Positions 10,058-45,272 of a DNA stretch of 64,000 nt are shown here, in pieces. The position numbers and the translations under genes were made by a program. Each line of letters starts with the position of its first letter. The first letter of the stretch is position 1. Origin of the DNA: Cyanobacteria bacterium FACHB-63 (GTDB lineage: Bacteria; Cyanobacteriota; Cyanobacteriia; Leptolyngbyales; Leptolyngbyaceae); NCBI GenBank assembly GCA_014695255.1, contig JACJNX010000038.1:1-64000 (forward strand). The letters are read 5' to 3'. A model generated the notes under the pieces. The model was not told where the DNA came from. It was given only the letters and a program-made list of their open reading frames with translations, and did not search any database.

Positions 10058-11725
10058 ATGGCAACAAAACATTTCGCGCTTGAAGGTGTGCGTGAGTGGA
10101 CCGATGAGTTTTTCGCGCTTTTTCCACACCGTTACGATTATATTTGGGCAGAACTTCCTCGTGTTGGCGCAGAAGTCAACTGGCAAACTGAATCTCGCCA
10201 TCCTTTGGGAGATCGCCTGATTCGCCAGGGCGGATATCTCTTTGGTGTTCGCTTTGGTGCAGAAACACAATACTGTCTGCTTGACATCGATGCTGGCAGT
10301 CCATATCACCCGAATCGAGACCCGTTTGCAATTGGTCGGATCGCTGCTGCATTAGAACCGCTTGGGTTAGTTAAGTACGTCGTTTGCACATCAAGCTACA
10401 GCGGTGGTTTGCATCTTTATTTTCCATTTCCGCAAGCTCATAGTAGTTGGCAGTTAGCGATTGCCGTTGCGACCCTGCTCGAAAACTCTGGCTTCAAGAT
10501 CGTGCCTGGACAGCTTGAAACGTTTCCAAATCCCAAACCATACATTGCAGAAGGAACGCCCAGTCTATTCAACGCCCATCGTCTACCGCTGCAAATTGGC
10601 TCTTATTTGCTCAATGACGACTTTCAACCAATCTGGAGCACACAGCAAACCTTTGTTCAACAATGGCAATTTGCTCAAACTCGCAACGACCTAGACACCA
10701 AAACGCTAAAGCAGATTCTCAAGCAAACGAAACGGCGATTGTTTCAAGTGTCTGGAAAAGCAGAAAAGTTTATTAGTGATTTGAATGCAGAAATCGAATT
10801 AGGTTGGACAGGCTACGGGCAGACCAATCGCTTGTTGGGGCGCATTACGATGCGATCGTACATTTTTCACCACGTCCTCTCCAGGGGACAACCGCTGGAA
10901 GGAAAAGCGCTCGTTGAAGAGATCGTCGAAACGGCAAAGTCACTTCCGGGCTATCAAGAATTTTGTCAGCATCAGCATGAAATCGAACATCGTGCAGCAG
11001 AGTGGGCACGATGCATTGAATCAAGCCATTATTTTCACTACGGGGATCAGAAAGGAAAGTTCAAGGCAAAGTCTGAAGAACTAAAAAGCGCAATCGATCA
11101 AGCTCCGTCTTGGAATCAACAACAATCAGCATCAGCAAGAGATCGGATTAGAAGCGCGATCGCTGACCTGCTGGAAAAAGGAATTCTTCCTAGTCAAGCG
11201 ACTCAAAGATTCAAAGTCTTGCTTCAATACAAGATTGGAGGTGGATCTCTTTATCGTCATCGGGATCTTTGGCATCCTCAATTTCTCATGAATGATTCTC
11301 TAGGTGATTTAGAGGAATTGAAGGCAGAAAACAACCCTCAAAATTCTACAAGCTTATTACCTAATGATGGCGGTAATCATGCTACTAGCAATGATTCTAG
11401 CGATTCTACAGTTGAAAATTCTAGCGCGATAGGCGGTAATTCATTGATTCATCAGAATTTCTGCCCTGTTACCGCAGATACTCAGGCTGAATCGATTTCA
11501 CAAGTTTTAATTCATGCTGAAGCACAGCGAGAAGCTTGTGAGACAGCGACTCAACTCGCTGCTGAAGGTCAGACGCAGAACAATGCACCAAGCCAAAGAC
11601 AGATCGAGCGAATGCAGCAATTTCTAGATTCTGACGACCCGATTCTGATTGCAGAAGCATCCGCTTGGGCACAACATCGCCCAGGCGTTTTAGAGCTGAA
11701 TCGTGTTCGATCGTCGTTGCTCTGA
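10058..11725 (+). CDS. PrimPol-like (archaeo-eukaryotic primase superfamily) replication protein
   Basis: 555 aa. The AEP motifs are visible in order: YCLLDIDAGSPYHP (motif I, D-x-D, about residues 71-84), SSYSGGLHLYFPFP (motif II, S-G-x-H, about 112-125), and RLPLQIGSYLL (motif III region, about 174-184). Such proteins make primers and often initiate replication of plasmids. The middle third is helical. Residues ~415-490 are low-complexity Ser/Asn-rich (TSNDSSDSTVENSS), a likely linker, before a short helical tail. No helicase motifs are present, unlike many plasmid primase-helicases. Start ATG at 10058 lies directly after the iteron array. Probably works with the divergent HTH protein. Confidence 0.75.
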   Translation: MATKHFALEGVREWTDEFFALFPHRYDYIWAELPRVGAEVNWQTESRHPLGDRLIRQGGYLFGVRFGAETQYCLLDIDAGSPYHPNRDPFAIGRIAAALEPLGLVKYVVCTSSYSGGLHLYFPFPQAHSSWQLAIAVATLLENSGFKIVPGQLETFPNPKPYIAEGTPSLFNAHRLPLQIGSYLLNDDFQPIWSTQQTFVQQWQFAQTRNDLDTKTLKQILKQTKRRLFQVSGKAEKFISDLNAEIELGWTGYGQTNRLLGRITMRSYIFHHVLSRGQPLEGKALVEEIVETAKSLPGYQEFCQHQHEIEHRAAEWARCIESSHYFHYGDQKGKFKAKSEELKSAIDQAPSWNQQQSASARDRIRSAIADLLEKGILPSQATQRFKVLLQYKIGGGSLYRHRDLWHPQFLMNDSLGDLEELKAENNPQNSTSLLPNDGGNHATSNDSSDSTVENSSAIGGNSLIHQNFCPVTADTQAESISQVLIHAEAQREACETATQLAAEGQTQNNAPSQRQIERMQQFLDSDDPILIAEASAWAQHRPGVLELNRVRSSLL

Positions 11726-19796: not shown

Positions 19797-20435
19797 ATGC
19801 TCATTGGAATTTTAAACAGAAAAGGCGGCTGTGGAAAATCAACGACCGCTGTACATCTTGCTTACTGGCTATCGCGTCAAAAACAGCGTGTTATTTTGGT
19901 CGATTCGGATGGGCAGATGAGTTCTAGTCAATGGCTCGATAAATTAAAGATGCCCTCTGTTGTAATCAACGATCCTGATGATTTATTTGATCAGATCGGC
20001 AAACTTGCAGAGGAATATGATTCCGTCGTTGTAGACTCTCCATCGGTCTTGGGGGAGCCAGCTAAATCAGTGCTGCTGAGCGTTGATCTTGCGATCGTTC
20101 CGGTGCAGCCATCTAACCTAGACTTGCTTTCTGCGAAAGACATTGTTCGATTGGTGAATCAGGCACAGAAGATTCGAGGCGGTACACCTAAAGCAGCAAT
20201 GTTCTTGAGTCGCGCTTCACGAGGAACAGTGCTGCTCAGGGAAGCACGCGAGGCACTAAGTCAAACTCAAGGTTTTACCCTATTGGAATCGATGGTTTAT
20301 CAGCGTCAAGCGATCGCTGATGCTCCAGGTCAGGCAGCAACCGTGTTTTCGATGTCTGGAGAGGCAGCAAGTTCAGCAGCAAAAGATTACGATGCTCTTT
20401 TCAAGGAGGCGATGCGATATGGCAAGACGAAATAG
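19797..20435 (+). CDS. parA: ParA-family partition ATPase
   Basis: 212 aa, the short (type Ib-like) ParA form without an N-terminal HTH. The deviant Walker [21 protein letters not shown] (residues 8-27) carries the signature lysine. The [16 protein letters not shown] segment is Walker A', and [17 protein letters not shown] holds the Walker B region. ParA dimerises on ATP and moves plasmid cargo together with ParB. parB overlaps the 3' end by 17 nt. The pair marks this DNA as an autonomously partitioned replicon or one derived from it. Confidence 0.93.
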
Positions 20436-21333
20436 CTTGAAGGACGAATGGCAATTCGAGACCGAGATAGAATCCGGCAATCAGAACATTTCGATTCACG
20501 CGATTCAACTTCCTGCAAACCAGCCCCGTCGCTACTTCGATCCGCATAAGCTTCAACAGTTAACAGAATCGATTCGCCAACATGGAATTCTTGAGCCTTT
20601 ATTAGTGCGTCCTGTAGCTAAAGCTGGGATGTATGAACTGGTTGCTGGAGAACGTCGCTTTAGAGCCGCAAAAGCCGCAGAACTTGATACTGTACCTGTA
20701 ACTATTCGAGAACTGAGCGATGAGGAGTCTTTGCAGCTTGCGTTAGTTGAAAATTTGCAGCGTGAAGATCTTAACCCGGTCGAAGAGACAGAGGGTATCT
20801 TGCAGTTGCTAGGACTGAGGCTGAAGATAAACGCGATCGATGTTCCAGCTTTGCTTTACCGGATGCGAAACGAAGTGATCGGCAATTCTAATCAAAACGT
20901 TTTGATTAGTCTGGAGGCTGAAGCGGTTCAGACTGTTTTTAGCGAGTTGGCTACGATTTCGTGGGAATCATTTGCGACCACTCGGCTCCCGCTGCTCAAT
21001 CTGCCGCCTGACGTACTTGAGGCACTGCGAAGCGGAAAGATTGCTTATACCAAAGCTCAGGCTGTTTCTCGAATTAAAGACGAAGCGCAACGAAGTCAAG
21101 TTTTAGAAGAAGCGATCGTGCAAGAACTATCTCTAGCGCAAATTAAAGAAAAAATTTCCAATCTCAAAATGCTGGATGTGGATCTAGAGAAAAAACCTCC
21201 ATCACTAAAGGGACAGATTAAGGATGTTTTGCGTCTAGCTCATCGTTCAAAGGTTTGGGATGACCCCAAAAAGCAGAAGCGTCTAGAAAAACTGTTGGCA
21301 GATTTAAGAACGTTGGTTTCTGATGCGAACTAG
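20419..21333 (+). CDS. parB: ParB-family partition protein
   Basis: 304 aa from the ATG at 20419, chosen because AAGGAGG lies 9 nt upstream; longer frames extend into parA. The ParB/Sulfiredoxin domain shows [20 protein letters not shown], the CTPase motif [19 protein letters not shown], and [16 protein letters not shown], followed by a helix-turn-helix region ([20 protein letters not shown]) and a lysine-rich tail. The family binds parS and CTP and loads onto DNA as a clamp. No obvious parS palindrome was recognised nearby. A ~35-aa insertion ([20 protein letters not shown]) separates the CTPase and HTH parts. Confidence 0.93.
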
Positions 21334-24667: not shown

Positions 24668-25753
24668 CTAATTCAGCGAAAAAGCAGCGACTTTATCGGG
24701 AGGTAGAATTGCATCTCGAATGTTGAGTTGTTTTGGAATTAGCTTGAGTTGGTAATAGGTATCTGCAACTTTCTGCTGCTCGGCAATGATGTCATCTGTT
24801 ACCGGATTGAGTCCAAACACTCTGCGCTGTGTCGCTTTTTTCACTGCTTCAGCATCAAGCTTTAGGGCATCGGTCAGTACTTTTGCAACCTCATCACGAT
24901 TCTTGTCAGACCAAGCTTCCAGATTTCGGACTTCTTCTAGAATTGCTTTCAAAACCTTAGGCTGCTCAGCGGCAAACTTCCGAGAAGCAATATAGTAGCC
25001 ACCTAGCTTGTTCAACCCTTCACCATCTGCTAACACACGGGCATTTGTGCCGACCTCAGCCGCAGCAAAGAACGGATCCCAAATGACCCAAGCATCTGCA
25101 TCACCCTTGACAAATGCAGCACGAGCATCCGCTGGAGTGAGATAGATGGGCTGAATATCATTAAAGGCTAATCCTGCTTTCTGAAGCAACTGTACAATCA
25201 GGTAGTTTGCGCTTGATCCCTTTGCAAATACGACTTTTTTACCCTTGAGATCTGCCACGCTTTGAATCGGTGAATCTTTGCGGACGAGAATTCCATTGCC
25301 TTTGGGATTGGGCGCGATCGCAGCCGCATAAGTTAATGCGGCTCCAGCAGCTTGCGCGAAAATAGGCGGCGATTCTCCTACAGGTCCAATGTCGATCGCG
25401 CCTGCATTCAACGCTTCAAGCAGGGGCGGTCCTGCTTGAAACTCTTTCCATTCTACTTTTACGCCTTCTGAAGCTAACCGCTTATCGATGTCTCCTTTAG
25501 ATTTGAGGAGAATGGTAGATTTTTGGAAACCAAACCGTACAACGTTCGCTGCTGACCCACTCTGGCTTGCTGGAGAGGCGTTTGGACTGTTAGAGGCAGT
25601 CGGGGTTGAAGATGTGCAAGCTGCGATCGCGAAACTCAAACAAAGCCCAAGAGCAGCAAAGCGTAGCCCAGTCGGAATAGTTAAACGTTTCTCTTCAATT
25701 GAAGAGGAACGATCAACTATCGATCGTATGAAACTGAGAATTCGATTGAACAT
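24668..25753 (-). CDS. Aliphatic sulfonate/taurine-type ABC transporter binding lipoprotein
   Basis: About 361 aa from the ATG at 25753 (a longer frame to 25840 exists). A signal peptide with lipobox SFAIAACTSS makes it a lipoprotein. The SsuA/TauA-type fold is shown by VRFGFQKSTILLKSKGDIDK, AIDIGPVGESPPIFAQAAGA, LKGKKVVFAKGSSANYLIVQ and DADAWVIWDPFFAAAEVG. It should present alkanesulfonates to a permease. No ATPase or permease is adjacent, so it may use the SsuBC set at 42-45 kb. After the lipobox cysteine there is no methionine or further cysteine, matching the sulfur-sparing pattern of nearby genes. Divergent from the TauD gene at 26250. Confidence 0.9.
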   Translation of the reverse strand: MFNRILSFIRSIVDRSSSIEEKRLTIPTGLRFAALGLCLSFAIAACTSSTPTASNSPNASPASQSGSAANVVRFGFQKSTILLKSKGDIDKRLASEGVKVEWKEFQAGPPLLEALNAGAIDIGPVGESPPIFAQAAGAALTYAAAIAPNPKGNGILVRKDSPIQSVADLKGKKVVFAKGSSANYLIVQLLQKAGLAFNDIQPIYLTPADARAAFVKGDADAWVIWDPFFAAAEVGTNARVLADGEGLNKLGGYYIASRKFAAEQPKVLKAILEEVRNLEAWSDKNRDEVAKVLTDALKLDAEAVKKATQRRVFGLNPVTDDIIAEQQKVADTYYQLKLIPKQLNIRDAILPPDKVAAFSLN

Positions 25754-26249: not shown

Positions 26250-27164
26250 ATGACCCTTACAAGCTTAGAAATTCGACCTGTTGCTGGACGAATTGGTGCT
26301 GAGATTCACGGAATTAACTTGAGTGAAACACTTTCTGATGCAACGATTCGTGGAATTCGCGAAGCGCTTGTGCAGTATAAAGTGATCTTCTTTCGCAATC
26401 AGCAATTAGATGCAGCGGGACAAGTTGCGTTTGCACGTCGGTTTGGTGAAATCACGACAGCGCACCCGACTGTACCCTCACTCGACGGACATCCAGAAGT
26501 GTTGGATTTGGATTACGATCGCACCGTTGCTCGCGCCAATCATTGGCATACGGATGTTACGTTTGTCGATCAACCGCCTTTGGGATCAATTCTGCGGGCG
26601 ATCGTCATTCCTCCAGTCGGAGGTGATACGGTTTGGGCAAACTCAGTCTCAGCCTATCAAGACTTACCCGAACCCTTGCGAAATCTAGCAGATCAACTTT
26701 GGGCAGTTCACAGCAATGCGTATGACTATGCGGCTCCAGCTTTAGATTTGTCTGAGGAGTTTAGAGCCTATCGGAGGGTTTTCACTTCAACAGTCTATGA
26801 AACACTGCATCCAGTCGTGCGAGTGCATCCAGAGTCAGGAGAGCGCGGACTGTTTATTGGCGGCTTTGTACGTCGATTTCAAGGCTTATCACAGACCGAA
26901 TCTGATGACCTGCTTCGGTTGTTACAGTCTTATGTGACTCGGCTAGAAAATACAGTGCGGTGGCAGTGGCAAGTCGGAGATGTTGCATTTTGGGACAATC
27001 GATCGACTCAGCATTATGCGATCGCGGATTACGGTGATCAATCTCGTCGAATGCAGCGCGTCACGATTTCGGGCGATTTGCCAACCAGTATCGATGGCAA
27101 ATACAGCCAAGCGCTGAAAGGAGATTCATCTTCTTATACGCCGAGTGAAGTTGTGCCAGTTTAA
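26250..27164 (+). CDS. TauD/AtsK-type alpha-ketoglutarate-dependent sulfonate or sulfate-ester dioxygenase
   Basis: 304 aa, full family length. The iron-binding HxD is in NHWHTDVTFVDQPPLGSIL (about residues 97-115), and the distal His in WDNRSTQHYAIADYGDQSRR (about 248-267), where the terminal Arg pair includes the 2-oxoglutarate ligand. TauD-family enzymes hydroxylate the carbon next to the sulfonate or sulfate group, releasing sulfite or sulfate. Which substrate cannot be read from sequence. It is divergent from a sulfonate-binding lipoprotein and upstream of cpcBA, so it is likely induced by sulfur limitation. One internal methionine and no cysteine. Confidence 0.92.
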   Translation: MTLTSLEIRPVAGRIGAEIHGINLSETLSDATIRGIREALVQYKVIFFRNQQLDAAGQVAFARRFGEITTAHPTVPSLDGHPEVLDLDYDRTVARANHWHTDVTFVDQPPLGSILRAIVIPPVGGDTVWANSVSAYQDLPEPLRNLADQLWAVHSNAYDYAAPALDLSEEFRAYRRVFTSTVYETLHPVVRVHPESGERGLFIGGFVRRFQGLSQTESDDLLRLLQSYVTRLENTVRWQWQVGDVAFWDNRSTQHYAIADYGDQSRRMQRVTISGDLPTSIDGKYSQALKGDSSSYTPSEVVPV

Positions 27165-27958
27165 TGTTAATTTGCTCCAAATTGAAGGAACGATCGTGAC
27201 TACAAGTAAGAAACAACTGGCTCAAACGGCAGAAGCTATTTGAATTAATATCGGGCAACGATCGTTGATCGTTGTTCCTGCATAATACTGCCTTAGCACT
27301 GCCATCAGAAATCAAGAGCTTAGAACGATGTCCAACGTTTTCTAGGTATCAAGTTTTTGGTTTCTGATGGCTTTCCTATAAATTGAATATTTTTATAATA
27401 GGAGTAGATTGGAAGACCTACTTCTATTTTTGCTGTCTATATGAATAAAGCCTTAATAATTTTTCTCATCTATTTTTGAATCTGTTTTCTTAACCGTTTC
27501 ATCTCAGCAAACTTTAAGAATTGAAAAGAATTTTTCAAGTCGTAGTTTCTGAAAAACATCGGATATAGCTGGTTATTTCTAAAAAATGTAGCAGCGAAAA
27601 CAGAGTTATTTATATTTACTCATTGCCAAAAACGAAATCAATTAATAATAGAAATACACCCCTATAATAGTAAGAATTAAATACGCTAATTACCTAAACA
27701 TTATTTAAAAGAAAACAGTGTATTGTTGTTGTAAAAATAAGCTTGTAGGGAGTTAAATACAGAACAAATCGAATCAAAAACGTTCTGCTGATTTCTCATT
27801 CTGCTACTTCTAATCACTCATTAACTTTCGATTTCTGAGCTTATCAGTTATCTCGAATAGTTTTTGTGCGGAAAGATTTAGAACACGCTGAATCTTGTTC
27901 TTGCTTTCGGAAGCTAGCACCTCCTTATTCATTAACTCAGCAATTAGGAGAAGAAAAC
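27165..27958. promoter_or_regulatory. AT-rich leader and promoter region of cpcBA
   Basis: About 790 nt without a credible gene. A GTAGATTGG at 27404-27412 lies in a small hairpin (AGTAG...CTACT). It matches the sequence upstream of ssuB exactly and the one upstream of the TauD gene in 8 of 9 positions. A TATAAT occurs at 27663-27668 without a good -35, implying an activator and a ~290-nt leader. AGGAG at 27946-27950 is the cpcB ribosome binding site. A small GGCAACGATCG/CGTTGTTCC stem near 27256-27281 could terminate tauD transcription. Confidence 0.45.
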
Positions 27959-28480
27959 ATGGTACAAGATGCTTTTACGAAGGTCGTAGCTCAAGCAGAT
28001 GTTCGAGGAGAGTATCCTAGCGCAGGGCAATTAGACGGGCTGATTGCATTAGTTCGCGAAAGCAATAAGCGGATTGATGTGGTTAATCGGATCACTAGCA
28101 ATTCTTCGACGATCGTCGCGAGTGCTGCTCGTGCGCTGTTTGAAGCCCAACCTCAGCTAATCGCTCCGGGCGGAAATGCTTACACAAACCGTCGTGCGGC
28201 TGCCTGCTTGCGAGACCTCGAAATCATTCTGCGCTATGTCACGTATGCCACCTTCACGGGCGATGTCAGCATCCTCGAAGATCGTGCGCTGAATGGACTG
28301 CGAGAAACCTATCAGGCTCTCGGCGTTCCGGGTGCATCCGTTGCGGCTGGAATTCAAAAGCTCAAAGAAGCTTCACTGGCGATCGCAAATGATCCCAACG
28401 GCATTACGAAAGGCGATTGCAGCAACATTCTGTCTGAAGTTGCTAGTTACTTCGATCGAGCTTCTGCTGCGGTCGGCTAA
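27959..28480 (+). CDS. cpcB: Phycocyanin beta subunit, methionine/cysteine-depleted form
   Basis: 173 aa, normal CpcB length. The start at 27959 has AGGAG 8 nt upstream. Conserved features: the phycobiliprotein globin fold, [20 protein letters not shown] with bilin Cys83, and [20 protein letters not shown] with Cys154. These are the only cysteines, and the only methionine is the initiator. At positions where ordinary CpcB carries Met or Cys, substitutions are seen: GEYP for GEML, RRAAAC for [11 protein letters not shown] for LRDME, DRALNG for DRCLNG, QKLKEA for GKMKEA and DRASAA for DRACAA. This matches the sulfur-starvation phycocyanin of Calothrix PCC 7601 (Mazel and Marliere). It should assemble with CpcA into phycobilisome rods. 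Confidence 0.97.
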
Positions 28481-28519
28481 TTTTTGCTCAACCATGATGA
28501 TTTAGGAGGAATTTAATCA

Positions 28520-29011
28520 ATGTCGAAGACTCCATTAACTGAAGCGGTCAATACTGCGGATTCTCAAGGACGCTTTTTGAGCAGCACCGAATTTCAAATT
28601 GCGTTTGGTCGATATAGACAAGCAGCAAACTCGCTGGAGGCTGCAAAAGAACTGTCGAATAAAGCAGCAAGCCTGGCAGAATCGGCGGCAAATGCAGTCT
28701 ATCAAAAGTTTCCTTATACCACGCAGCTGCAAGGTCCGAACTATGCGTCGGATGCTCGTGGTAAATCAAAATGTGTGCGTGATATTGGCTACTACCTGCG
28801 GATCATTGCTTACGCACTGGTTGTGGGTGGAACAGGTCCGATCGATGAATACCTAGTGGCAGGTTTGGCTGAAATCAATAGCGCGTTTGAATTGTCTCCA
28901 AGCTGGTACATTGAAGCGCTCAAGCACATCAAAGCCAATCATGGTTTGTCGGGCGACCCTGCGGTCGAACTGAACTCGTACATTGACTATGTGATCAATG
29001 CACTGAGCTAG
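28520..29011 (+). CDS. cpcA: Phycocyanin alpha subunit, methionine/cysteine-depleted form
   Basis: 163 aa, 39 nt after cpcB with AGGAGG upstream. The bilin Cys85 lies in [20 protein letters not shown]. Conserved [20 protein letters not shown] and [20 protein letters not shown] identify CpcA rather than an allophycocyanin. No methionine occurs after the initiator and no other cysteine; the usual Met after LR, the Cys in the YCLV region and the Met of TGPMDEY are replaced (LRII, YALV, TGPIDEY). No rod linkers, lyases or cpcE/F follow; a terminator-like hairpin lies 112 nt downstream. The operon therefore supplies only the subunits and depends on chromosomal assembly factors. Confidence 0.97.
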
Positions 29012-29354: not shown

Positions 29355-29693
29355 ATGAACCGCAGAATTCTCGGCAGCATTAGTGTGCTGGCGATTTGGT
29401 TTTCAGTGGCTCCGATTGTACATGCACAATCTGTTAACCGTGCCGGTACAACACAGACAACAGCATTTGAACTGTCAGGATTAGCTCGAAATGGCTATCT
29501 TGCGAATCAGGGCATCCCCAGTGCAGGACTGCTTTCCTTCGATCTGCGATCGGGTCGAGTTGCAGCAGAAGATATTGTGAAAGCAGGCATTCGGGCAAAC
29601 CTTGTCTCACCAGATACATTAAACGATCAGGGCTATATTCGAGCGATCGAATACAACCTGACTGACACCCCAACGGGCGACAACGGCAATTAG
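29355..29693 (+). CDS. Secreted hypothetical protein, 112 aa, methionine- and cysteine-free
   Basis: AGGAG at 29342-29346 precedes ATG 29355. A clear Sec signal peptide (RRILGSISVLAIWFSVAPIV then HAQ, cleavage after about residue 24). The mature part (TTAFELSGLARNGYLANQGI, GLLSFDLRSGRVAAEDIVKA, then RANLVSPDTLNDQGYIRAIE) has no known family. Mature chain ~88 aa; no cysteine, and methionine only at the start. Between cpcBA and the porin gene, so possibly part of the same response. Terminator follows. Confidence 0.65.
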   Translation: MNRRILGSISVLAIWFSVAPIVHAQSVNRAGTTQTTAFELSGLARNGYLANQGIPSAGLLSFDLRSGRVAAEDIVKAGIRANLVSPDTLNDQGYIRAIEYNLTDTPTGDNGN

Positions 29694-30367: not shown

Positions 30368-32056
30368 ATGTTAGGAATTTTCCGGAGTTCTAGAGTTCCT
30401 CTCTCTGTTCTATTTGGAACTGGTTTGCTGCTATCTTCTGGTAGCGCAAGAGCGATCGAGCCATCATCAACTTTAATTGCACAAAGTCACGATCGTCCTA
30501 ATCTGATTGCACAAGATCCTTCTGTTTCTCAGTTCGATCAAAAGACAGAGGCTCAAGTGAACGCCCTAACAGGTCAAGTATCTTCAGTTTCGCAGCTTTC
30601 CGATGTACGCCCTACTGATTGGGCATTTCAAGCGCTGCAATCGCTTGTCGAGCGTTATGGCTGTATTGCAGGCTATCCCGATCGAACCTATCGTGGAAAT
30701 CGAGCACTGACTCGCTATGAGTTTGCGGCAGGATTAAATGCTTGTCTTAATCGAGTCAATGAGTTAATTGCAGCATCAACTTCTGATCTGGTTAAGAAAG
30801 AAGATTTAGCAACGATACAGCGCTTACAGGAACAATTTGCCGGAGAATTAGCAGGATTGCGTGGACGAGTTGACTCGCTCGAAGCTAGAACTACGACGCT
30901 TCAAAAGCAGCAGTTTTCTGCAACAACGAAGCTGCGGGGGGATCTGATTGCGATCGCGCTCGATACATTTGGCGATCGGGCTACGAACACAACAGCGCGG
31001 GTCGGAGATCAAACCCAAACGATTCTCGGCTATCGGTACAGGTTGACGTTGCAGTCGAGCTTTACCGGACGAGATCAGCTTACTACCAGCATCGGAGCTG
31101 CTAACTTCCCTATTTTGCAAAACGCCACGGGCACTGCTGAAACTCGAATTAACCTTGAAACTTATGCGCCACGTTTTACGGACGGCAGTGTGTTTCTAGA
31201 CCAGCTATTCTACCGCTTTCTAGTCGGTCAAGCAACCTTCTGGGTTGGTGCGCGGCAGCTTCAGCCTGCGGTGATTGCACCAAATCTCAATCCTTTGATT
31301 GGTGGATTCAATGGGGCTGTCTCTCGATTTGCAACCCATAATCCTGTGATTTATCGACCTGGTTTTGATGGTGCAGGTGCTGGTCTAACCTATGAGTTCA
31401 ATAAACGGTTGCGTCTGAGCTTGGGCTACATTACAGATGACACTAAAGCGAACAATCCTGTTGCAGGTCAAGGACTTTTTAGTGGAAATAATGAGGCATT
31501 GGGTCAGATCACTTTCTCTCCCAGCAGCGCATTCGATATTAGCTTTGCTTACGCTCGTAAGTACTTTGATAGTAACTCAGGGTTTAACTTGACAGGTGGT
31601 ACAGGCAGCGCAACTGCCAGAAATCCGTTTCTGCAAAATGCGACTGTCTCGGATAACTTTGGGTTGCATTTTCTCTGGAAAACAACTCCAACCTTTCAGA
31701 TTGGTGGATGGTTCGGCTATACTCGCGCTCATCAAGTCAGGGGTGCTGATAACGATGCAACGATTTTGAATGGTGCGCTAACGTTTGCGTTTCCAGACTT
31801 TTTTAGAAAAGGTGACTTAGCAGGAATCATTGTCGGTATTCCTCCAAAAACAACCAGCAACACTTTCCGCGCAACGCCGTCCTCTGCGCGTCGTCAAGAT
31901 CCAGATACCTCATTTCACCTAGAAGCGTTCTACAGCTATCGAATCAATGATAACCTGACTGTTTCTCCGAATGTGTACGTGATTCTCAATCCAGAGCACA
32001 ATAGTGTTAACAATACAATTTGGGTGGGTGCAGTTCGGACTTACTTTAGTTTCTAG
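30368..32056 (+). CDS. SLH-domain outer-membrane porin (SomA/OprB type), methionine-free mature chain
   Basis: 562 aa from the ATG at 30368 (a TTG at 30344 opens a longer frame). Signal peptide (PLSVLFGTGLLLSSGSARA), an SLH domain (about residues 75-135: VRPTDWAFQALQSLVERYGC, NRALTRYEFAAGLNACLNRV), a coiled coil (FAGELAGLRGRVDSLEARTT), then a carbohydrate-selective OprB-type beta barrel ending in aromatic VRTYFSF. It would let small solutes through the outer membrane and anchor it to the cell wall. No methionine after the start and only two cysteines, both in the SLH domain, which is exceptional for a ~560-residue protein. Likely a sulfur-starvation porin replacing the ordinary one; that is inference. 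Confidence 0.92.
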   Translation: MLGIFRSSRVPLSVLFGTGLLLSSGSARAIEPSSTLIAQSHDRPNLIAQDPSVSQFDQKTEAQVNALTGQVSSVSQLSDVRPTDWAFQALQSLVERYGCIAGYPDRTYRGNRALTRYEFAAGLNACLNRVNELIAASTSDLVKKEDLATIQRLQEQFAGELAGLRGRVDSLEARTTTLQKQQFSATTKLRGDLIAIALDTFGDRATNTTARVGDQTQTILGYRYRLTLQSSFTGRDQLTTSIGAANFPILQNATGTAETRINLETYAPRFTDGSVFLDQLFYRFLVGQATFWVGARQLQPAVIAPNLNPLIGGFNGAVSRFATHNPVIYRPGFDGAGAGLTYEFNKRLRLSLGYITDDTKANNPVAGQGLFSGNNEALGQITFSPSSAFDISFAYARKYFDSNSGFNLTGGTGSATARNPFLQNATVSDNFGLHFLWKTTPTFQIGGWFGYTRAHQVRGADNDATILNGALTFAFPDFFRKGDLAGIIVGIPPKTTSNTFRATPSSARRQDPDTSFHLEAFYSYRINDNLTVSPNVYVILNPEHNSVNNTIWVGAVRTYFSF

Positions 32057-33783: not shown

Positions 33784-36195
33784 TCAAGCCTTCAAATCTA
33801 AGGTGACTTTCCGCAAATTGCCCGTGAAAGCGTTAGGAACTTCATAGTTGTCAACAACAGGTGTTCCTAAATCTTGACCGACATCAAACGTCTCATCTAG
33901 ACCCCAGCGATAAGGAACCGTTTTTGCAATTCGTCCCTCACCCACAGCTTTGTCATTGATGAACAATCGACCTGTTGCCCCTGCACCGGGAGCTTTACCA
34001 TCAAAATCAAAGTCAAATCTGATGCTTGATGTGCCCGTCGGAACTTTTTCGGTAGATTGAATCAAAGTACGATCGCTGCCCAAGAAATTGTAAGCAAACG
34101 TTGGTTTACCCTTATCTAGAAAGAAACTCCATCCAGCAAAGCGTCCACCTTGAGCCGCTAGAATACCCGCTCCATTGTCTTTTGGAAGTTCAACTTCTGC
34201 TGTGATACTAAACGATTTGTTTTTCAGATCAGGGGCGCTCCCTTCAGGAATCCCAACTGCACCCGGATAGTACACAAAGTGGGTTCGACCTGCAACCAAA
34301 CTCGGACGACTGCTGACATCAAAGCGATTCAAAATGCGATCGTCTAAAGGCAATACGTTGTATTTACGAGCCTCTGAGAGAAACAATTTCTGGAGTTGCT
34401 GCAACTTTGTTGGGTTCTTCTCGGCTAAATTGTTCGCCTCACTAAAGTCCGATGCAACGTTGTACAGTTCCCAGGCATCTTGATCAAAGGTTGTCCTGGA
34501 AACAGCCTCCCACGGTAAGCGACCGTGACGAGCAGCAGCGATCCAACCCTTGTCATATATCGCTCGATTGCCAAACATCTCAAAATACTGTCTGTCATGA
34601 TGAGACGGTTCTTTCGGATTGTCAAAGGTGTAGACCAAACTTGTTCCTTCGATCGGTTGTTGTTCCACGCCATTTACCCGCTCAGGTGGCGTAATTCCTG
34701 CGGCTTCAAAAATGGTCGGTGCAATGTCGATTACATGATGAAACTGAGTGCGAAGTCCGCCGCGATCGTTGATGCGATCGCCCCAAGCAATAACTAAGGG
34801 ATCGCGTGTTCCGCCAAAGTGTGAAGCAATCTGCTTTGTCCATTGAAAGGGTGTGTTCATTGCCCAAGCCCAAGCAGCATGGAAATGATTGAAGGTTTTA
34901 GGGCTACCCAACTCATCGAGTGAGGCTAACAAAAGCTTTGGATCTTCGGGTACACCGTTGAACACTTTGAGTTCATTTACGCTGCCTGTTAAGCCTCCTT
35001 CCGCACTCGCACCATTATCACCAGCAATGTAGATTACAAGTGTATTGTCGAGTTCTCCCAGTTGGTCGATCGCATTAATCAACCGTCCGACTTCCGCATC
35101 AGTATGGGCAGTAAATCCAGCAAACACTTCGGCTTGATGAGCATAGAGTTTCTGTTCTTCTTTAGATAAAGAATTCCAAGCAGGGAACTCTTCCGGACGT
35201 GGAGTCAGTTTCGCATCCTCCGGAATCACCCCTAATTGTTTCTGATGTGCAAAAATTTCCTCACGTAACTGATCCCAACCTTGATCAAATTTGCCTTTGT
35301 ATTGATCAATCCAAGCTTTGGGGGCGTGATGCGGTGCGTGAGTGGCTCCAGTTGCAAAGTAAGCGAAGAATGGTTTATCTGGCGCGATCGATTGTTGCGC
35401 TTGAATCCAAGAAATTGCGTGATCTACTAAATCTGGAGTCAAATGATAGTTCGGATTGTCGATCGATTTTTGAATGCGCTTAGTATTCTCGACTAAAGCA
35501 GGACTCCACTGATTTGTATCTCCACCCAGAAAGCCATAGAAATACTCAAATCCTAGCTGAGTGGGCCAGCGATCGAACGGTCCTGCTGCACTCGTTTCGC
35601 TGTCCGGTGTGTTGTGCCATTTTCCAAAGGCGGCTGTGTTGTAACCATTCTGCCGCAGCACTTCTGCCACGGTTGCTGCACTCTTTGGCAAGATTGTTGT
35701 ATAGCCTGGAAATCCTGTTGCCAGCTCTTCTACCACACCTGTATTTACGGAATGATGGTTCCGCCCAGTGAGCAATGCTGCTCTGGTCGGAGAACAAAGC
35801 GCCGTCACATGAAACTGGTTGTAGCGTAATCCTCGTTCTGCTAATCGCGTGAAATTCGGAGTCTCGATCGGGCTTCCAAATGTGCTGGTCTGCCCAAATC
35901 CCATGTCGTCGAGCAGAATGAGCAATACATTCGGAGCTTTCTCTGGAGCAGAAACCGACTTTGGAAAATCGGGTTTAGAGTCTTCGTAGGTAATGCTAAC
36001 TTTACCTTGAAATTCTGGCTCTGGAGCGGGCAACACTTTAGAGGTTGCTGCATATCCAGGGTGAGCAAACAAGGTGAGAATGCTCAAAATTACAAATGCG
36101 ATCGCGATCGTTTGAATCACTCGCTTTACAGCTTGCCAAAAAATCCTCTGTATCCTCGTTTCTTGTCGTACTCTCATTGTCTGAATGATTGCCAT
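33784..36195 (-). CDS. Exported type I arylsulfatase with a single cysteine
   Basis: 803 aa. N-terminal hydrophobic signal/anchor (IQTIAIAFVILSILTLFAHP) ending near GYA-A. Sulfatase motifs: NVLLILLDDMGFG (metal-binding Asp pair), ALCSPTRAALLTGR with Cys134 in C-x-P-x-R (converted to formylglycine), FGKWHNTPD, ATHAPHHAPKAWID, and YIAGDNGASAEGG. A C-terminal ~180-aa beta-rich domain resembles a concanavalin-type fold. It should hydrolyse sulfate esters in the periplasm or outside. Cys134 is its only cysteine and only three methionines occur in the mature part. RBS GAGG upstream; 9 nt after the FGE gene that activates it. Confidence 0.95.
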   Translation of the reverse strand: MAIIQTMRVRQETRIQRIFWQAVKRVIQTIAIAFVILSILTLFAHPGYAATSKVLPAPEPEFQGKVSITYEDSKPDFPKSVSAPEKAPNVLLILLDDMGFGQTSTFGSPIETPNFTRLAERGLRYNQFHVTALCSPTRAALLTGRNHHSVNTGVVEELATGFPGYTTILPKSAATVAEVLRQNGYNTAAFGKWHNTPDSETSAAGPFDRWPTQLGFEYFYGFLGGDTNQWSPALVENTKRIQKSIDNPNYHLTPDLVDHAISWIQAQQSIAPDKPFFAYFATGATHAPHHAPKAWIDQYKGKFDQGWDQLREEIFAHQKQLGVIPEDAKLTPRPEEFPAWNSLSKEEQKLYAHQAEVFAGFTAHTDAEVGRLINAIDQLGELDNTLVIYIAGDNGASAEGGLTGSVNELKVFNGVPEDPKLLLASLDELGSPKTFNHFHAAWAWAMNTPFQWTKQIASHFGGTRDPLVIAWGDRINDRGGLRTQFHHVIDIAPTIFEAAGITPPERVNGVEQQPIEGTSLVYTFDNPKEPSHHDRQYFEMFGNRAIYDKGWIAAARHGRLPWEAVSRTTFDQDAWELYNVASDFSEANNLAEKNPTKLQQLQKLFLSEARKYNVLPLDDRILNRFDVSSRPSLVAGRTHFVYYPGAVGIPEGSAPDLKNKSFSITAEVELPKDNGAGILAAQGGRFAGWSFFLDKGKPTFAYNFLGSDRTLIQSTEKVPTGTSSIRFDFDFDGKAPGAGATGRLFINDKAVGEGRIAKTVPYRWGLDETFDVGQDLGTPVVDNYEVPNAFTGNLRKVTLDLKA

Positions 36196-36204
36196 CTTTG
36201 ATCC

Positions 36205-37179
36205 TCATTTCAAGTTTTTGACCAAACGAAATCCAATGTGGGTCGTTCCAGTATCAGGAGCCTGCGATTCTCGTGCTGCTGGACGGAAGCGACTGCAATA
36301 GTTCGGCGCACAAAGATATGAGCCACCTTTAATCACGTGCAAGACTGGTTCTTCTAGCTTGTTGGCATCAGAGCTTTCGTGTTGAGCCGTTGGATTAATT
36401 TGATGCGCTTTACCACTGTGCCCAACGCGGTACCAATCCGTTGTCCATTCCCAAACGTTCCCTGCCATATCGTAGAGACCATAGCTATTTGGAGGAAAAG
36501 AACCCACTGGAGCAGTTCCAACATAGCGATCGACCTGTGTATTAAAAAACGGAAACATACCCTGCCATGTGTTTGCCTTTGTCGCAGAATACTGGTTGCC
36601 CCAAGTGTAGGTTGCCCGATCGAGTCCCCCTCGCGCAGCATATTCCCACTGTGTTTCTGTTGGAAGTTCTTTCCCTGCCCACTTCGCATACGCTACAGCA
36701 TCTTCATAAGCAATGTGAACAACCGGATAGTTGTCTTTACCCGCGATCGTACTTTCCGCACCAAATGGATGTTTCCAACTCGCGCCCGTTGTCCAGTGCC
36801 ACCAACTTAAAAATTGTTCTCCAGGTTTCGTCATTTGAAAGACCAATGATCCCGGCGATCGCTCTTCTTCAGAAAGATTGGGAAACTGTTCTTTAGAAAG
36901 GGGACGTTCAGCAACAGTGACATATTGGGTTGCTTGGACAAACTTAGCAAATTGAGCATTCGTCACTTCAGTCCGATCAATACAGAAGCGATCGACCGTA
37001 ACATCACTTGCCGATCGCTCTTCTGGATAGTTCGAGAGCTCTGATCCGATCGTAAAGTTGCCGCTTGGAATCAACACCATCTCCTCTGGACAAGGTGAAG
37101 CCGCCCATGCGAAGTTCGAGCAACAAAAGACAAAAGTAATGAGGCAAAGTGCTATCGCACTCTGAAAATAACGCAGCAC
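36205..37179 (-). CDS. Formylglycine-generating enzyme, secreted
   Basis: 324 aa from a GTG at 37179. Signal peptide ALCLITFVFCCSNFAWA then AS. FGE-sulfatase domain: FTIGSELSNYPEERSASDVT, DRTEVTNAQFAKFVQATQYV, LPTETQWEYAARGG, YGLYDMAGNVWEWTTDWY, and GGSYLCAPNYCSRFRPAAR. The cysteine pair at about residues 290 and 295 matches the copper-binding active pair of aerobic FGEs. It converts the sulfatase Cys to formylglycine, here apparently after export, as both proteins carry export signals. First gene of the FGE-sulfatase-BASS operon. Confidence 0.95.
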   Translation of the reverse strand: MLRYFQSAIALCLITFVFCCSNFAWAASPCPEEMVLIPSGNFTIGSELSNYPEERSASDVTVDRFCIDRTEVTNAQFAKFVQATQYVTVAERPLSKEQFPNLSEEERSPGSLVFQMTKPGEQFLSWWHWTTGASWKHPFGAESTIAGKDNYPVVHIAYEDAVAYAKWAGKELPTETQWEYAARGGLDRATYTWGNQYSATKANTWQGMFPFFNTQVDRYVGTAPVGSFPPNSYGLYDMAGNVWEWTTDWYRVGHSGKAHQINPTAQHESSDANKLEEPVLHVIKGGSYLCAPNYCSRFRPAARESQAPDTGTTHIGFRLVKNLK

Positions 37180-38058: not shown

Positions 38059-38388
38059 CTATGCTAAAGATTGACCAGCATTACTCAACAGTTGACCAAG
38101 TTCCTGTAGTTTACCTGTGAGTTCTGAGTCTGCGCCTGATGCCGCAGCACTGGTCTGTGAGCCAAGTTGAGAAAGCGTTTGACCGATCTCTTGCTGGCTA
38201 CCACCTCCGCTTGTTAGTAAACTTTTGAGTTTCACCAGATTGTTTGCGATCTCTGTTGCACCTAAACCTCTTACTTGTTGCTCGAAGCCATCGATAACTT
38301 GAACAGCAGTGTCTGCTGGAACAGAGGTTAATCCGCCTTTTAGGGCAGAAATGACCTGATCGATATCAGTTGCGGAAGATGTTGCCAT
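38059..38388 (-). CDS. Small hypothetical protein, 109 aa, methionine- and cysteine-free
   Basis: Start ATG 38388 with GAGG upstream (a longer frame to 38427 is less likely). Sequence is helical and low in complexity: DIDQVISALKGGLTSVPADT, GFEQQVRGLGATEIANNLVK, LLTSGGGSQQEIGQTLSQLG, then SELTGKLQELGQLLSNAGQS. Similar small Ala/Ser/Gln-rich proteins occur in cyanobacteria without assigned function. No methionine after the start and no cysteine, in keeping with its neighbours. Preceded by an AT-rich promoter region and followed by the hairpin at 37998. Confidence 0.65.
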   Translation of the reverse strand: MATSSATDIDQVISALKGGLTSVPADTAVQVIDGFEQQVRGLGATEIANNLVKLKSLLTSGGGSQQEIGQTLSQLGSQTSAAASGADSELTGKLQELGQLLSNAGQSLA

Positions 38389-42224: not shown

Positions 42225-43067
42225 ATGACCGCTTCACGACACGGAATTCATCTCAAGCTGGAAGGATTGAAGAAATCCTTCCAAACTCAGGAGGTGTTAC
42301 GAGGAATTGACCTCGAAGTTCTCCCAGGACAATTTGTAGCGATCGTCGGTCGAAGCGGTTGTGGCAAAAGTACGATCCTTCGCATGATTTCTGCCCTCGA
42401 TTCCCCAACGGGCGGCGAGATTTTACTTGATGGTCAACGCTCACGAAAGCTCAATGCTGATATTCGCATGATGTTCCAAGATTCGCGCCTGTTACCCTGG
42501 CAGCGAGTCATCGACAATGTGGAGCTAGGATTGATTGCACTCACAGATCAAGCCTCAGGACTGCGTAAACAGAAGGCGCGAGAAGGACTCGCGGCAGTTG
42601 GACTTGCCGATCGTGGAAAAGAATGGCCTGCTGTACTATCAGGTGGGCAACGTCAACGGGTTGCTTTAGCTAGAGCCTTAGTGAGTGAGCCGCGTCTATT
42701 ACTGCTCGATGAGCCGTTGGGCGCATTGGATGCTTTAACTCGCGTCGAGATGCAGCAGCTACTAGAACGCCTTTGGCAAGAACAAGGCTTCACAGCATTC
42801 TTGATTACTCATGATGTTGAAGAAGCAGTTGCACTCGCCGATCGAGTCATCTTGATCGAAGAAGGTCAGGTTGGACTCGATATTGAGATCAATTTACCGC
42901 GTCCTCGTCAGCGAGGTCATGCAGTGTTTGCGAAAACAGTGACAGACCTAGTGCAACGATTGTTAGGTAAAACTAAGGAAGAGTACGATCGAGAAAAAGA
43001 ATTGGCGGCAATGGTTTCCGATCAGGTTTTAGAAGGTGACTTGGCGAAAACTCGAACACTGGCGTGA
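42225..43067 (+). CDS. ssuB: Sulfonate-type ABC transporter ATPase
   Basis: 280 aa from ATG 42225 with GGAGG 7 nt upstream. Walker [14 protein letters not shown] (about residues 43-55), Q-loop [14 protein letters not shown] (the D-S-R-L-L-P-W string is typical of SsuB/TauB/NrtD), signature [15 protein letters not shown], Walker [13 protein letters not shown], and H-loop [17 protein letters not shown]. Powers uptake of alkanesulfonates. First gene of ssuB-SBP-ssuC. Substrate class is inferred from the SBP partners. Confidence 0.92.
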
Positions 43068-43196
43068 AGCGAAGCTACCGCAACTCGATGATTCGCTGAA
43101 GCACGAATAACGCTGATAGTATCCGAAGTTTGTTCGCTTCTCTGAGTCAAGCTGTGGAGTGAAGCTTCTTTCTCACCTTACTTTCTTTCCGTAATC

Positions 43197-44372
43197 GTGG
43201 AGAACGGTAACACATTTAAGTATGAAACTATTCCCTTAGTACAAGGAGAACCTGTCCCGGTGAAAGGTTTAATCAAAAAAATTGAAGTCTGGAAACACCT
43301 GCGATTCACTCGTCGTGCAGCTTTGTTTCTAGTAGGGTACTTCCTAATTCTTTCAACCACATTGGGAAGTTGCAATTCAAATCCTATCACTCAGCAACCT
43401 GCGGTTTCCCCCAGTGCTGTAGTGAGTAGCGCATCTGGAGGTACACCCAGTGATAATGCAAAAGAGGTACGGATTGTTCGATCTAAGCAACTTACTGCCC
43501 TTGCAGTATTAGAGAAGCAAGGCACATTAGATAAAGCATTAGAGCCATTGGGATTTAAGGTTAAGTGGTCGGAGTTTGCAGCCGGACCTCAACAGCTTGA
43601 AGCCCTGAAAGTTGGAGCGCTAGACATTGCTCACACTGCTGAATCGCCTCCTGTTTTTGCTCAAGCCTCTGGAACACCATTGGTTTATTTAGCAACAATG
43701 CCCCGCAACGGGAAGCCTGTTGCATTGCTAATCCCAAAAGATTCGCCTGCACAGTCGATCGCTGATCTCAAAGGTAAAAAAATTGCGGTTCAAAAAGCCT
43801 CGATCGGTCACTATTTACTTGTGAAAGCTCTAGAGAAAGCAGGATTAAAGCTTAATGATGTAGAGTCTGTGTTCCTACCGCCACCCGATGCGAATGTTGC
43901 CTTTACTCAGGGCAGAGTAGACGGTTGGTTTATTTGGGATCCATTCATCACCCGAACAGAGAAAGCAGGGACTGGACGAGTGTTGCTAGATGGTGAAAAC
44001 TTGCGAGATACCACAAACTTCTACTCAACCAGTCGAGACTTCTACAAAGCGCATCCTGACGTGATCAAGGTATTCCTTGAAGAACTGCAAAAAGCAGAGA
44101 TCTGGACACGAGATCACCGTAAAGAGGTTGCACAATTGTTGGCTCCAGTGACTCAACTTTCTCCAGATATCTTGGAGACAATGCACGGAAAGTATGAGTA
44201 TGGTTTGCGCCCAATTACTGAGCAGATTATTAGTAAGCAGCAAGAAGTTGCAGACTTGTGGTACAGCCTGAAGCTTGTGCCGAAGAAAGTAAACGTTCGC
44301 GAAGGGTTTCTGACGGCTGAGGAGTACGCAAACATTACTCCAAAAGAAGTATTGACCGCCAAAGTATTTTAG
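43197..44372 (+). CDS. ssuA: Sulfonate-type ABC transporter binding lipoprotein
   Basis: 391 aa from a GTG at 43197. A long basic N-terminus precedes a signal segment (ALFLVGYFLILSTTLGSC); the lipobox is LGSC. The SBP fold shows VRIVRSKQLTALAVLEKQGT, ALDIAHTAESPPVFAQASGT, LKGKKIAVQKASIGHYLLVK and GRVDGWFIWDPFITRTEKAG. Lies between the ATPase and permease genes, so it is the cognate binding protein. Paralogous to the lipoprotein at 24668. Two methionines in the mature chain, and only the lipobox cysteine. Confidence 0.92.
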   Translation: MENGNTFKYETIPLVQGEPVPVKGLIKKIEVWKHLRFTRRAALFLVGYFLILSTTLGSCNSNPITQQPAVSPSAVVSSASGGTPSDNAKEVRIVRSKQLTALAVLEKQGTLDKALEPLGFKVKWSEFAAGPQQLEALKVGALDIAHTAESPPVFAQASGTPLVYLATMPRNGKPVALLIPKDSPAQSIADLKGKKIAVQKASIGHYLLVKALEKAGLKLNDVESVFLPPPDANVAFTQGRVDGWFIWDPFITRTEKAGTGRVLLDGENLRDTTNFYSTSRDFYKAHPDVIKVFLEELQKAEIWTRDHRKEVAQLLAPVTQLSPDILETMHGKYEYGLRPITEQIISKQQEVADLWYSLKLVPKKVNVREGFLTAEEYANITPKEVLTAKVF

Positions 44373-44459
44373 TGTTCTCGACGTTAGGGCGTGGCTGTAA
44401 ATTGCCCTAATTCTCCGCAAGTATCCCATTCTGACCTGAATTCAATATCGGAGTATTTT

Positions 44460-45272
44460 ATGGCTCAACAATCAATAAGGCTAGAGGCTTTTAGACCTAT
44501 ATTGAACAATTCTCGCGTTCGTGCATTACTTCCGTGGGCGTTTCCAGTATTGCTCTTGGTGCTTTGGCAAATCTTTTCATCAGCCGGAATCATTCCAGCT
44601 AGAGTGTTGCCTTCGCCCCTTAGCGTTTTTACAGCAGTTTGGGGATTGATCCAATCTGGGGAGTTGTTCAAACACATCAGCATTAGTGCCAGACGCGCGG
44701 TAACTGGATTTATCATCGGGGGTAGTATCGGATTTGCGCTAGGGGTTCTCAATGGGCTTTTGCCTGTTGCAGAAACCTTGTTTGATACTTCGCTACAAAT
44801 GCTTAGAACGATTCCGAACTTAGCATTATTACCTCTGGTCATTCTATGGTTTGGGATTGGGGATGAAGCGCGATTATTCTTGGTGTCGATCGGGGTTTTG
44901 TTTCCGATCTATCTCAACACGTTTCATGGGATTCGCAACGTTGATTCAGGTCTGATCGAAATGGGTCGCGTGTATGGTTTGAGTCCAATTCAGCAGTTTT
45001 TGAAGATTATTCTTCCAGGTGCAATGTCATCGATTCTAGTCGGGGTGCGGTTCTCGCTGGGAATTATGTGGCTGACGTTGATTGTGGCAGAAACGATCGC
45101 AGCAGATTCTGGCATTGGCTATATGGCAATGAATGCACGAGAATTTATGCAAACTGATGTGGTGGTTTTGAGTATTCTGCTGTATGCCTTGTTTGGAAAG
45201 TTAGCAGATATGATTGCTCGTGCATTAGAGCGATCGTGGTTGCGCTGGAATCCCAATTACAGCAAGGTTTAA
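44460..45272 (+). CDS. ssuC: Sulfonate-type ABC transporter permease
   Basis: 270 aa from ATG 44460 with CGGAG at 44449-44453. BPD_transp_1 permease with about six membrane helices (VRALLPWAFPVLLLVLWQIF, ARRAVTGFIIGGSIGFALGV). The EAA loop is visible as EMGRVYGLSPIQQFLKIILP, followed by GAMSSILVGVRFSLGIMWLT. It forms the membrane channel for the SsuB ATPase. An intrinsic terminator follows. Confidence 0.93.
   Translation: MAQQSIRLEAFRPILNNSRVRALLPWAFPVLLLVLWQIFSSAGIIPARVLPSPLSVFTAVWGLIQSGELFKHISISARRAVTGFIIGGSIGFALGVLNGLLPVAETLFDTSLQMLRTIPNLALLPLVILWFGIGDEARLFLVSIGVLFPIYLNTFHGIRNVDSGLIEMGRVYGLSPIQQFLKIILPGAMSSILVGVRFSLGIMWLTLIVAETIAADSGIGYMAMNAREFMQTDVVVLSILLYALFGKLADMIARALERSWLRWNPNYSKV

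Follow-up and report, generated by a model that had tools for sequence, protein, structure and literature searches.

Genes at the Locus and on Its Contig

The window, the 64,000-nucleotide stretch of DNA analyzed here, forms the beginning of contig C112 (155,712 bases), which belongs to a cyanobacterial genome of 7.23 Mb in 179 contigs. It contains two adjoining phycocyanin genes, cpcB and cpcA, whose products are almost free of methionine and cysteine. The features to which the following sections refer are listed below in window coordinates.

10058..11725, + strand: 555-aa cyanobacterial plasmid protein, 83% identical to a protein on Leptolyngbya sp. NIES-3755 plasmid1
19797..21333, + strand: ParA and ParB partition genes
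24668..25753, - strand: SsuA-type aliphatic sulfonate binding protein (NCBIfam NF008588 and TIGR01728 above cut-off)
26250..27164, + strand: TauD-family dioxygenase adjoining cpcBA (PF02668; one internal Met, no Cys)
27688..27741, + strand: promoter-like element, TAAACATT...TTGTAAAAAT, starting 271 bp before cpcB
27946..27950, + strand: Shine-Dalgarno-like AGGAG before cpcB, read from the sequence
27959..28480, + strand: cpcB, stripped phycocyanin beta, 173 aa, with Met1, Cys83, and Cys154 only
28520..29011, + strand: cpcA, stripped phycocyanin alpha, 163 aa, with Met1 and Cys85 only
29355..29693, + strand: small secreted-looking protein, 112 aa, no internal Met or Cys
30368..32056, + strand: OprB porin with SLH domain, no internal Met, two Cys
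33784..36195, - strand: sulfatase, 803 aa, four internal Met, one Cys
36205..37179, - strand: formylglycine-generating (sulfatase-modifying) enzyme, by sequence family match
38059-38388: small protein, 109 aa, no internal Met or Cys, no Pfam match
42225..45272, + strand: SsuB-SsuA-SsuC sulfonate ABC transporter (42225-43067, 43197-44372, 44460-45272)
50017..51369, + strand: NtaA/DmoA-family FMN-dependent monooxygenase
56435..57382, - strand: second TauD-family dioxygenase, no internal Met, no Cys

Both phycocyanin genes are intact. Pfam family PF00502 matches CpcB with an E value of 1.1e-51 and CpcA with 5.7e-47, and the solved structures nearest to the two proteins are phycocyanins. According to the preliminary description, CpcB retains only the initiator Met and the bilin cysteines 83 and 154, and CpcA only the initiator Met and Cys85; the composition of the proteins, one Met and two Cys in 173 residues and one Met and one Cys in 163 residues, bears this out. 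The bilin cysteines are alpha 84 and beta 82 and 153 in mature numbering, which by position correspond to Cys85, Cys83, and Cys154. These three are invariant in every listed row of the pair alignment.

The sulfur-related products of C112 include four SsuA-type binding proteins, of which one falls below the family cut-offs, as well as SsuC and its neighboring ATPase, SsuD, SsuE, two TauD-family dioxygenases, two NtaA/DmoA-type monooxygenases, a sulfatase with the formylglycine-generating enzyme, a sulfate-binding protein, an O-acetylhomoserine sulfhydrylase, and MetX. Within the transporter at 42225..45272, SsuC and SsuA lie above their family cut-offs, while SsuB was named from ABC_tran and its position. 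The best NCBIfam model for the TauD-family protein at 26250..27164 is taurine dioxygenase, with 278.9 bits, below the cut-off of 313. The names sulfate-binding protein, CysW, linker, CpcD-type, and porin were given by eye and then confirmed. The family of the small protein at 29355..29693 has five matches in the host genome. Glutathione-transferase-like genes are also present on C112, as is an SsuE-type FMN reductase at C112:68192-68749 (L063:4192-4749) with no Met or Cys past its start.

The plasmid-like character of C112 is supported by the ParA and ParB genes, by the lack of any tRNA gene on the contig, and by the 555-aa protein at 10058..11725, which has matches on 66 plasmid records; together, these point to a plasmid. 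The ends of the 155,712-base contig do not overlap, and the contig is not closed. For 24 kb of the window, no near-identical plasmid was found among records from which those very near the host genome may be absent. The earlier characterization of a parAB replicon carrying sulfonate and sulfatase genes agrees with the ParA/ParB, Ssu, TauD, and sulfatase genes present on C112.

The open reading frames starting between 22.5 and 58 kb, borders that were chosen by the analyst, have a median Met+Cys content of 1.47% (33 ORFs), compared with 2.64% in a background of 336 ORFs, for which 20 stretches on five other contigs were sampled (p 9e-6). The remaining ORFs of C112 lie near the background (median 2.13%, p 0.017). 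All of these figures come from a mechanical ORF caller that includes false ORFs and that chose antisense frames over both ordinary cpcBA genes. A specially stripped contig proteome was considered and rejected, as TauD homologues elsewhere are equally poor: those of Burkholderia, Caballeronia (two), and Streptomyces have no Met or Cys in the aligned part, and that of Planktothrix has one of each. Met/Cys poverty is thus usual for TauD, the one family tested.

Comparison with the Ordinary Phycocyanin of the Host

The other cpcBA of the host lies on contig C138 (566,517 bases), which is taken as chromosomal, and is followed by rod linkers. This copy is not equally poor in sulfur amino acids: its CpcB has six Met and three Cys and its CpcA six Met and two Cys. 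These 17 residues consist of two start Met, three bilin Cys, and 12 residues that are regarded as dispensable. All 12 dispensable residues are replaced in the window pair, as had been proposed for the Met/Cys positions of ordinary CpcB, compared with 76 differences at the remaining 317 positions (Fisher p 7.5e-8, in a test that ignores relatedness). Relative to the host copy, the pair has gained neither Met nor Cys. An alpha-beta pair contains five sulfur atoms in the window form and 17 in the host's other form, with the two start Met included in each.

The nearest relative of the window pair in sequence trees is locus L068, to which CpcB is 88% and CpcA 92% identical; the identity of CpcB to the host's other CpcB is 78%. 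Between the window and L068, dN/dS is 0.04 for cpcB and 0.02 for cpcA (with dS values of 1.7 and 2.2, near saturation), and the window genes are, as judged by this ratio, under strong purifying selection. At 7 of the 12 dispensable sites, one and the same residue is found in all 28 stripped pairs of the clade described below: Ala at CpcB 80 and 110, Leu at CpcB 87 and 135, Leu at CpcA 39, and Ile at CpcA 95 and 108.

Distribution of Stripped Pairs

Relatives were taken from the best 80 loci of a named genome collection (more than 80 exist), together with further loci and plasmid records. Of the 94 CpcBA pairs gathered by likeness to the stripped query, 32 have no dispensable Met/Cys residue at all, 7 have 1-3, and 55 have 4-12, with the borders of these groups set by the analyst. 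Because the set was drawn by similarity to a stripped query, the counts are no population frequencies.

Trees were built after the removal of 21 columns where Met or Cys occurs in more than one row. The 94-row tree left out L055, L057, L058, L059, L061, and L017, which were assumed to be duplicates, as well as L088, whose contig stops short of cpcA; L006 appears in it under the name hostChrom. A 70-row tree was obtained by dropping 24 further near-copies. Stripped pairs like that of the window group in a single clade of 29 of the 94 rows (SH-aLRT 96), composed of 28 stripped pairs and L081, which has one extra Cys yet falls inside the clade. In the reduced tree, the clade holds 23 of 70 rows with support of 100/98, the bootstrap being called rough by the program. 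The partner of the window pair is L068, from Leptolyngbyaceae cyanobacterium C42_A2020_001 (support 100/99). The members come from Leptolyngbyaceae, Calothrix, Nostoc, Fischerella, Brasilonema, Scytonema, a Chroococcidiopsidaceae genome, Microcystis, and Kovacikia. Exact absence of dispensable Met/Cys thus recurs in 28 pairs of this main lineage across many genera, some of the pairs being near-copies.

The stripped gene is patchy in the window's genus as sampled by eight genomes: a stripped CpcB was found in three of them (the host genome G000 and its congeners G392 and G393), while each of the remaining five has an ordinary protein as its best CpcB. CpcB was matched in 53 genomes, and its Met and Cys were read only where a locus was extracted. 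Each of the 11 genomes with a stripped CpcB read in this way has at least one further CpcB match at an E value of 1e-60 or better.

Several side observations were made at these loci. In Microcystis (L089-L092), the stripped cpcBA lies beside cysteine-synthase-like and rhodanese-domain genes. A 611-aa protein of about 0.2% Met+Cys, without a Pfam match, is encoded less than 10 kb from the stripped cpcBA in five loci (L071:976-2811, L069, L072, L074, and L075). The host genome also encodes two closely placed proteins, 157 and 164 aa long, that are distant members of the phycobilisome family, at G000:C137:38068-38484 and 39718-40122 (L010 and L013), with scores of 71 and 38 bits; similar weak matches occur in G389 and G391.

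Sulfur Genes in the Neighborhood

The order of genes around the window pair is SsuA, TauD, cpcB, cpcA, small secreted protein, and porin. In congener G393, SsuA, TauD (86% identical), cpcB, and cpcA are found on a 6.3-Mb contig with order and orientation kept; past a transporter gene, the porin (66%) and the small secreted protein, the latter about 4 kb from cpcBA, follow with order and direction inverted. On a 12-kb contig of congener G392, cpcBA lies between SsuB-SsuA-TauD-SsuC and SsuE-monooxygenase-SsuA.

Only loci flanked by 14 kb or more of sequence entered the count of this association, a limit that kept 24 of the 29 stripped loci and 38 of the 53 ordinary ones and left out L081. Of the 24 stripped-clade loci, 13 have a homologue of a C112 sulfur protein at a distance of up to 10 kb, and none of the 38 ordinary loci has one (Fisher 3.0e-7); without the sulfate-binding protein, the count is 10 of 24 against 0 of 38 (Fisher 1.8e-5), and both p values ignore the relatedness of the loci. 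These figures supersede an earlier count of 16/24 against 0/37, in which three reference proteins came from stripped loci and L054 was left out. The neighborhood occurs in 9 of 15 genera, by the analyst's own genus labels, and consequently the association is not one lineage repeated. At the other 11 of these 24 loci, no member of the sulfur-gene reference set was found up to 10 kb away. Within the literature searched, the finding is new that stripped cpcBA appears widespread and physically joined to sulfur scavenging.

Rod Linkers

Linker genes had been described as absent beside the window pair, and the whole of C112 proved to be without them: none of the host's nine PF00427 hits and none of its four PF01383 hits falls on this contig. 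The PF00427 hits comprise five on C138 and four inside a long ApcE-like frame on C101, and the PF01383 hits three on C138 and one on C68. It follows that the window pair would use the linkers of C138, other host linkers, or none.

Among 30 loci (29 and the window), 12 have rod linkers directly downstream with zero to one internal Met and no Cys, one or two per locus and 265-288 aa long, and 7 of these 12 also have a CpcD-type gene of 70-82 aa without internal Met or Cys. At L073, only an ordinary linker is found, beside a neighboring ordinary cpcBA. Loci with linkers of their own that share the clade and residue pattern of the window include those of Calothrix brevissima (L069), Nostoc carneum (L072), Calothrix membranacea (L075), Brasilonema (L110/L119), and Scytonema (L123). 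In the sub-clade of the window (17 rows), the window and 14 others are without linkers in the available flank, and L076 and L079 have them. The absence of linkers was therefore rejected as a special property of the window, as 18 of the 30 loci have no stripped linker, some of their contigs ending a few kb past cpcA. Both the sulfur-gene setting and the missing linkers, which the preliminary description presented as new, are thus real, but neither is unique to the window, since congeners and relatives share them.

The Region Upstream of cpcB

The promoter-like element at 27688..27741 scores 23.2 with a matrix trained without the window and L068, a value reached by none of 2000 shuffles of the window's upstream region, and nothing else on C112 exceeds 8 bits. 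The best of the 2000 shuffles scored 12.4, a value exceeded by 20 of 32 stripped, all 4 second-lineage, and 41 of 53 ordinary cpcB upstream regions; nine of these stripped loci served to train the matrix, and some are near-copies. The sequence TTAGGAGA is present in 13 of 21 upstream regions. A sulfur-specific promoter at -271 was rejected, because ordinary cpcB has the element too and nothing else on C112 scores. As a common cpcB type with no second match on the contig, the element gives no evidence for sulfur control. A LysR-type regulator at C112:75483 is a candidate only for a possible regulator.

A Second Stripping in Nostoc-Type Genomes

Four more pairs, L060 of genome G191 and L099, L137, and L138 of three Nostoc genomes, also have exactly zero dispensable Met/Cys but lie among ordinary Nostocales pairs and have a separate origin. 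A single origin of all stripped pairs was rejected: forcing them into one group costs 127 log-likelihood units (p-AU 0.000125). The four do not form one clade in the 70-row tree (two changes) and may consequently represent one gain with reversals or several gains. Their replacements differ from those of the main lineage, with Ile instead of Leu at CpcB 135, Val at CpcB 31, Leu instead of Ile at CpcA 108, and Ser at CpcA 99. In their ordinary relatives L127, L147, and L141, CpcA already has only one Met and one Cys and the linkers have few of either; the step to zero was therefore shorter in this group.

No other CpcB was found in the four genomes, save one at 67-69% identity in three of them; in L138, the one tested, this relative is nearest to phycoerythrocyanin beta (2c7j). 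The stripped pair hence seems to be the sole C-phycocyanin in these genomes, in which case it is no starvation substitute there. In addition, none of the four pairs has a C112-type sulfur gene within 10 kb, and stripping alone is therefore no proof of a starvation gene. At L138:10001-11089, in Nostoc sp. FACHB-110, the stripped cpcBA was observed beside phycoerythrocyanin-type genes.

Relation to Known Systems

The closest known counterpart is PC-3, the cpc3 product of Calothrix (Tolypothrix) sp. PCC 7601, which was reportedly described by Mazel and Marliere in 1989 and by Gutu et al. in 2011. The cpc3 operon of this strain has its own Met/Cys-poor linkers, cpcH3I3D3. The window pair resembles PC-3 as a phycocyanin freed of dispensable Met/Cys that occurs beside an ordinary phycocyanin in the same genome. 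However, cpc3 has its own stripped linkers, whereas the window pair has none and lies among sulfonate and taurine genes on a plasmid-like contig. It shares one clade with stripped pairs of Calothrix and Nostoc species, in a data set where no sequence bears the name of PCC 7601. The cpc3 pattern first proposed for the window therefore applies to the stripping and the second, ordinary phycocyanin but not to the linkers, and the likeness is drawn from the cpc3 literature and the architecture of relatives.

Systems for scavenging sulfur during sulfate starvation, such as SsuEADCB, TauABCD, and arylsulfatase, have Met/Cys-poor proteins. Enzymes of the same kinds adjoin cpcBA in the window; we know of no such cluster that includes a light-harvesting protein. 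A further comparison is offered by plasmid pA (1.2 Mb) of Kovacikia minuta, a record named as a plasmid, whose pair belongs to the stripped clade and has the same composition (one Met and two Cys in CpcB, one of each in CpcA). It differs in being 79%/83% identical and in its neighborhood, which over 10 kb has a cysteine-synthase-like gene but none of the C112-type sulfur genes. The 329-kb plasmid pPSE7367.01 of Pseudanabaena sp. PCC 7367 (L054), which is typed as conjugative, carries an ordinary cpcBA with rod-core linkers and lyases; its CpcB has five Met and three Cys over the aligned part. Phycocyanin on plasmids is consequently not tied to stripping.

According to PMC4424289, which cites both Mazel and Marliere 1989 and Gutu et al. 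2011, acclimation of PCC 7601 to low sulfate involves antenna proteins that are depleted of sulfur-containing amino acids; PMC12269360 likewise cites Mazel and Marliere 1989. The 'Cpc3' in PMC9420970 is a lyase and not the cpc3 phycocyanin. The open-licence literature searched, in which silence is weak evidence of absence, yielded nothing on the spread of the cpc3 type, its clustering with sulfonate genes, or a stripped sole phycocyanin.

Explanation and Rival Readings

It is highly probable that the window pair encodes an additional phycocyanin of the PC-3 kind, one that spares sulfur and is made instead of the ordinary protein in sulfur famine, and the PC-3 sulfur-sparing mechanism appears strongly supported by the sequence comparisons. 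The replacement of all 12 sites with the bilin cysteines kept, the common clade of stripped pairs, the low dN/dS, the nearby sulfur genes, the further CpcB in each carrier genome read, and the nearly stripped linkers of 12 loci speak for this reading; the common type of the upstream element, the 11 stripped-clade loci with no sulfur gene nearby, the missing linkers, and the second lineage weigh against it. The stripped alpha and beta subunits would fold, bind bilin, and build hexamers as ordinary phycocyanin does. In sulfur famine, they would be made in place of the ordinary protein, while the neighboring sulfonate, taurine, and sulfate-ester genes would raise the supply of sulfur. The pair, having no linkers of its own, would borrow the host rod linkers on C138. 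We infer that the expression of the window cpcBA is sulfur-responsive.

Three other readings have to be weighed against this one. If the pair were silent cargo of the plasmid or a sulfur-poor store of amino acids, forming no rods for want of linkers, the lack of a linker on C112 would be as expected. However, the three bilin cysteines are kept, purifying selection appears strong, a promoter-like element and a ribosome site are in place, and rod linkers exist elsewhere in the genome; this reading is thus quite improbable. There is even less to be said for the removal of Met and Cys against oxidation, in strong light, desiccation, or peroxide, instead of for sulfur saving. Met and Cys are the residues most easily oxidized, C112 has glutathione-transferase-like genes, and the second lineage was stripped without sulfur genes nearby, all of which would suit protection from oxidation; the near-complete stripping of the linkers would fit it as well as sulfur saving. 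Such protection nevertheless predicts no tie to genes for sulfonate, taurine, and sulfate uptake, and the tie was found in 13 of 24 loci against 0 of 38, leaving this reading very improbable. Least probable of all is an ordinary accessory phycocyanin for light color or low light, with Met/Cys loss by drift and a chance location among sulfur genes: phycocyanin genes of ordinary Met/Cys content do exist on plasmids (Pseudanabaena PCC 7367), but all 12 sites were lost with none gained, dN/dS is 0.02-0.04, and exact zero recurs in the 28 main-lineage pairs of many genera, with a single clade member (L081) having an extra Cys.

Beyond the sulfur-sparing reading of the window pair, a wider picture can be proposed, to which we incline only slightly: stripped phycocyanin may be an accessory pair of organosulfur clusters that moves with them between plasmid and chromosome, borrows linkers, and was re-invented at least one further time in Nostoc-type genomes as the sole C-phycocyanin. 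The PC-3 kind itself is already known. New within the literature searched are the linker-less form in a sulfur-scavenging block on a plasmid-like contig, the wide spread, and the second origin.

Significance

In a cyanobacterium, no protein may be more abundant than phycocyanin, as spectral counts for Phormidium yuhuli in PMC9420970 indicate, and the removal of sulfur from it is therefore a textbook adaptation to element scarcity. To our knowledge, this example is based mainly on a single strain. A comparative system is now available, with a stripped clade that is linked to sulfur acquisition, loci that either have linkers of their own or lack them, and a second stripping that used other residues. 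In bloom-forming Microcystis, the stripped cpcBA could matter in low-sulfate lakes. The questions opened include which Met and Cys of the antenna are dispensable, how rods are assembled without dedicated linkers, and whether the trait spreads with scavenging clusters.
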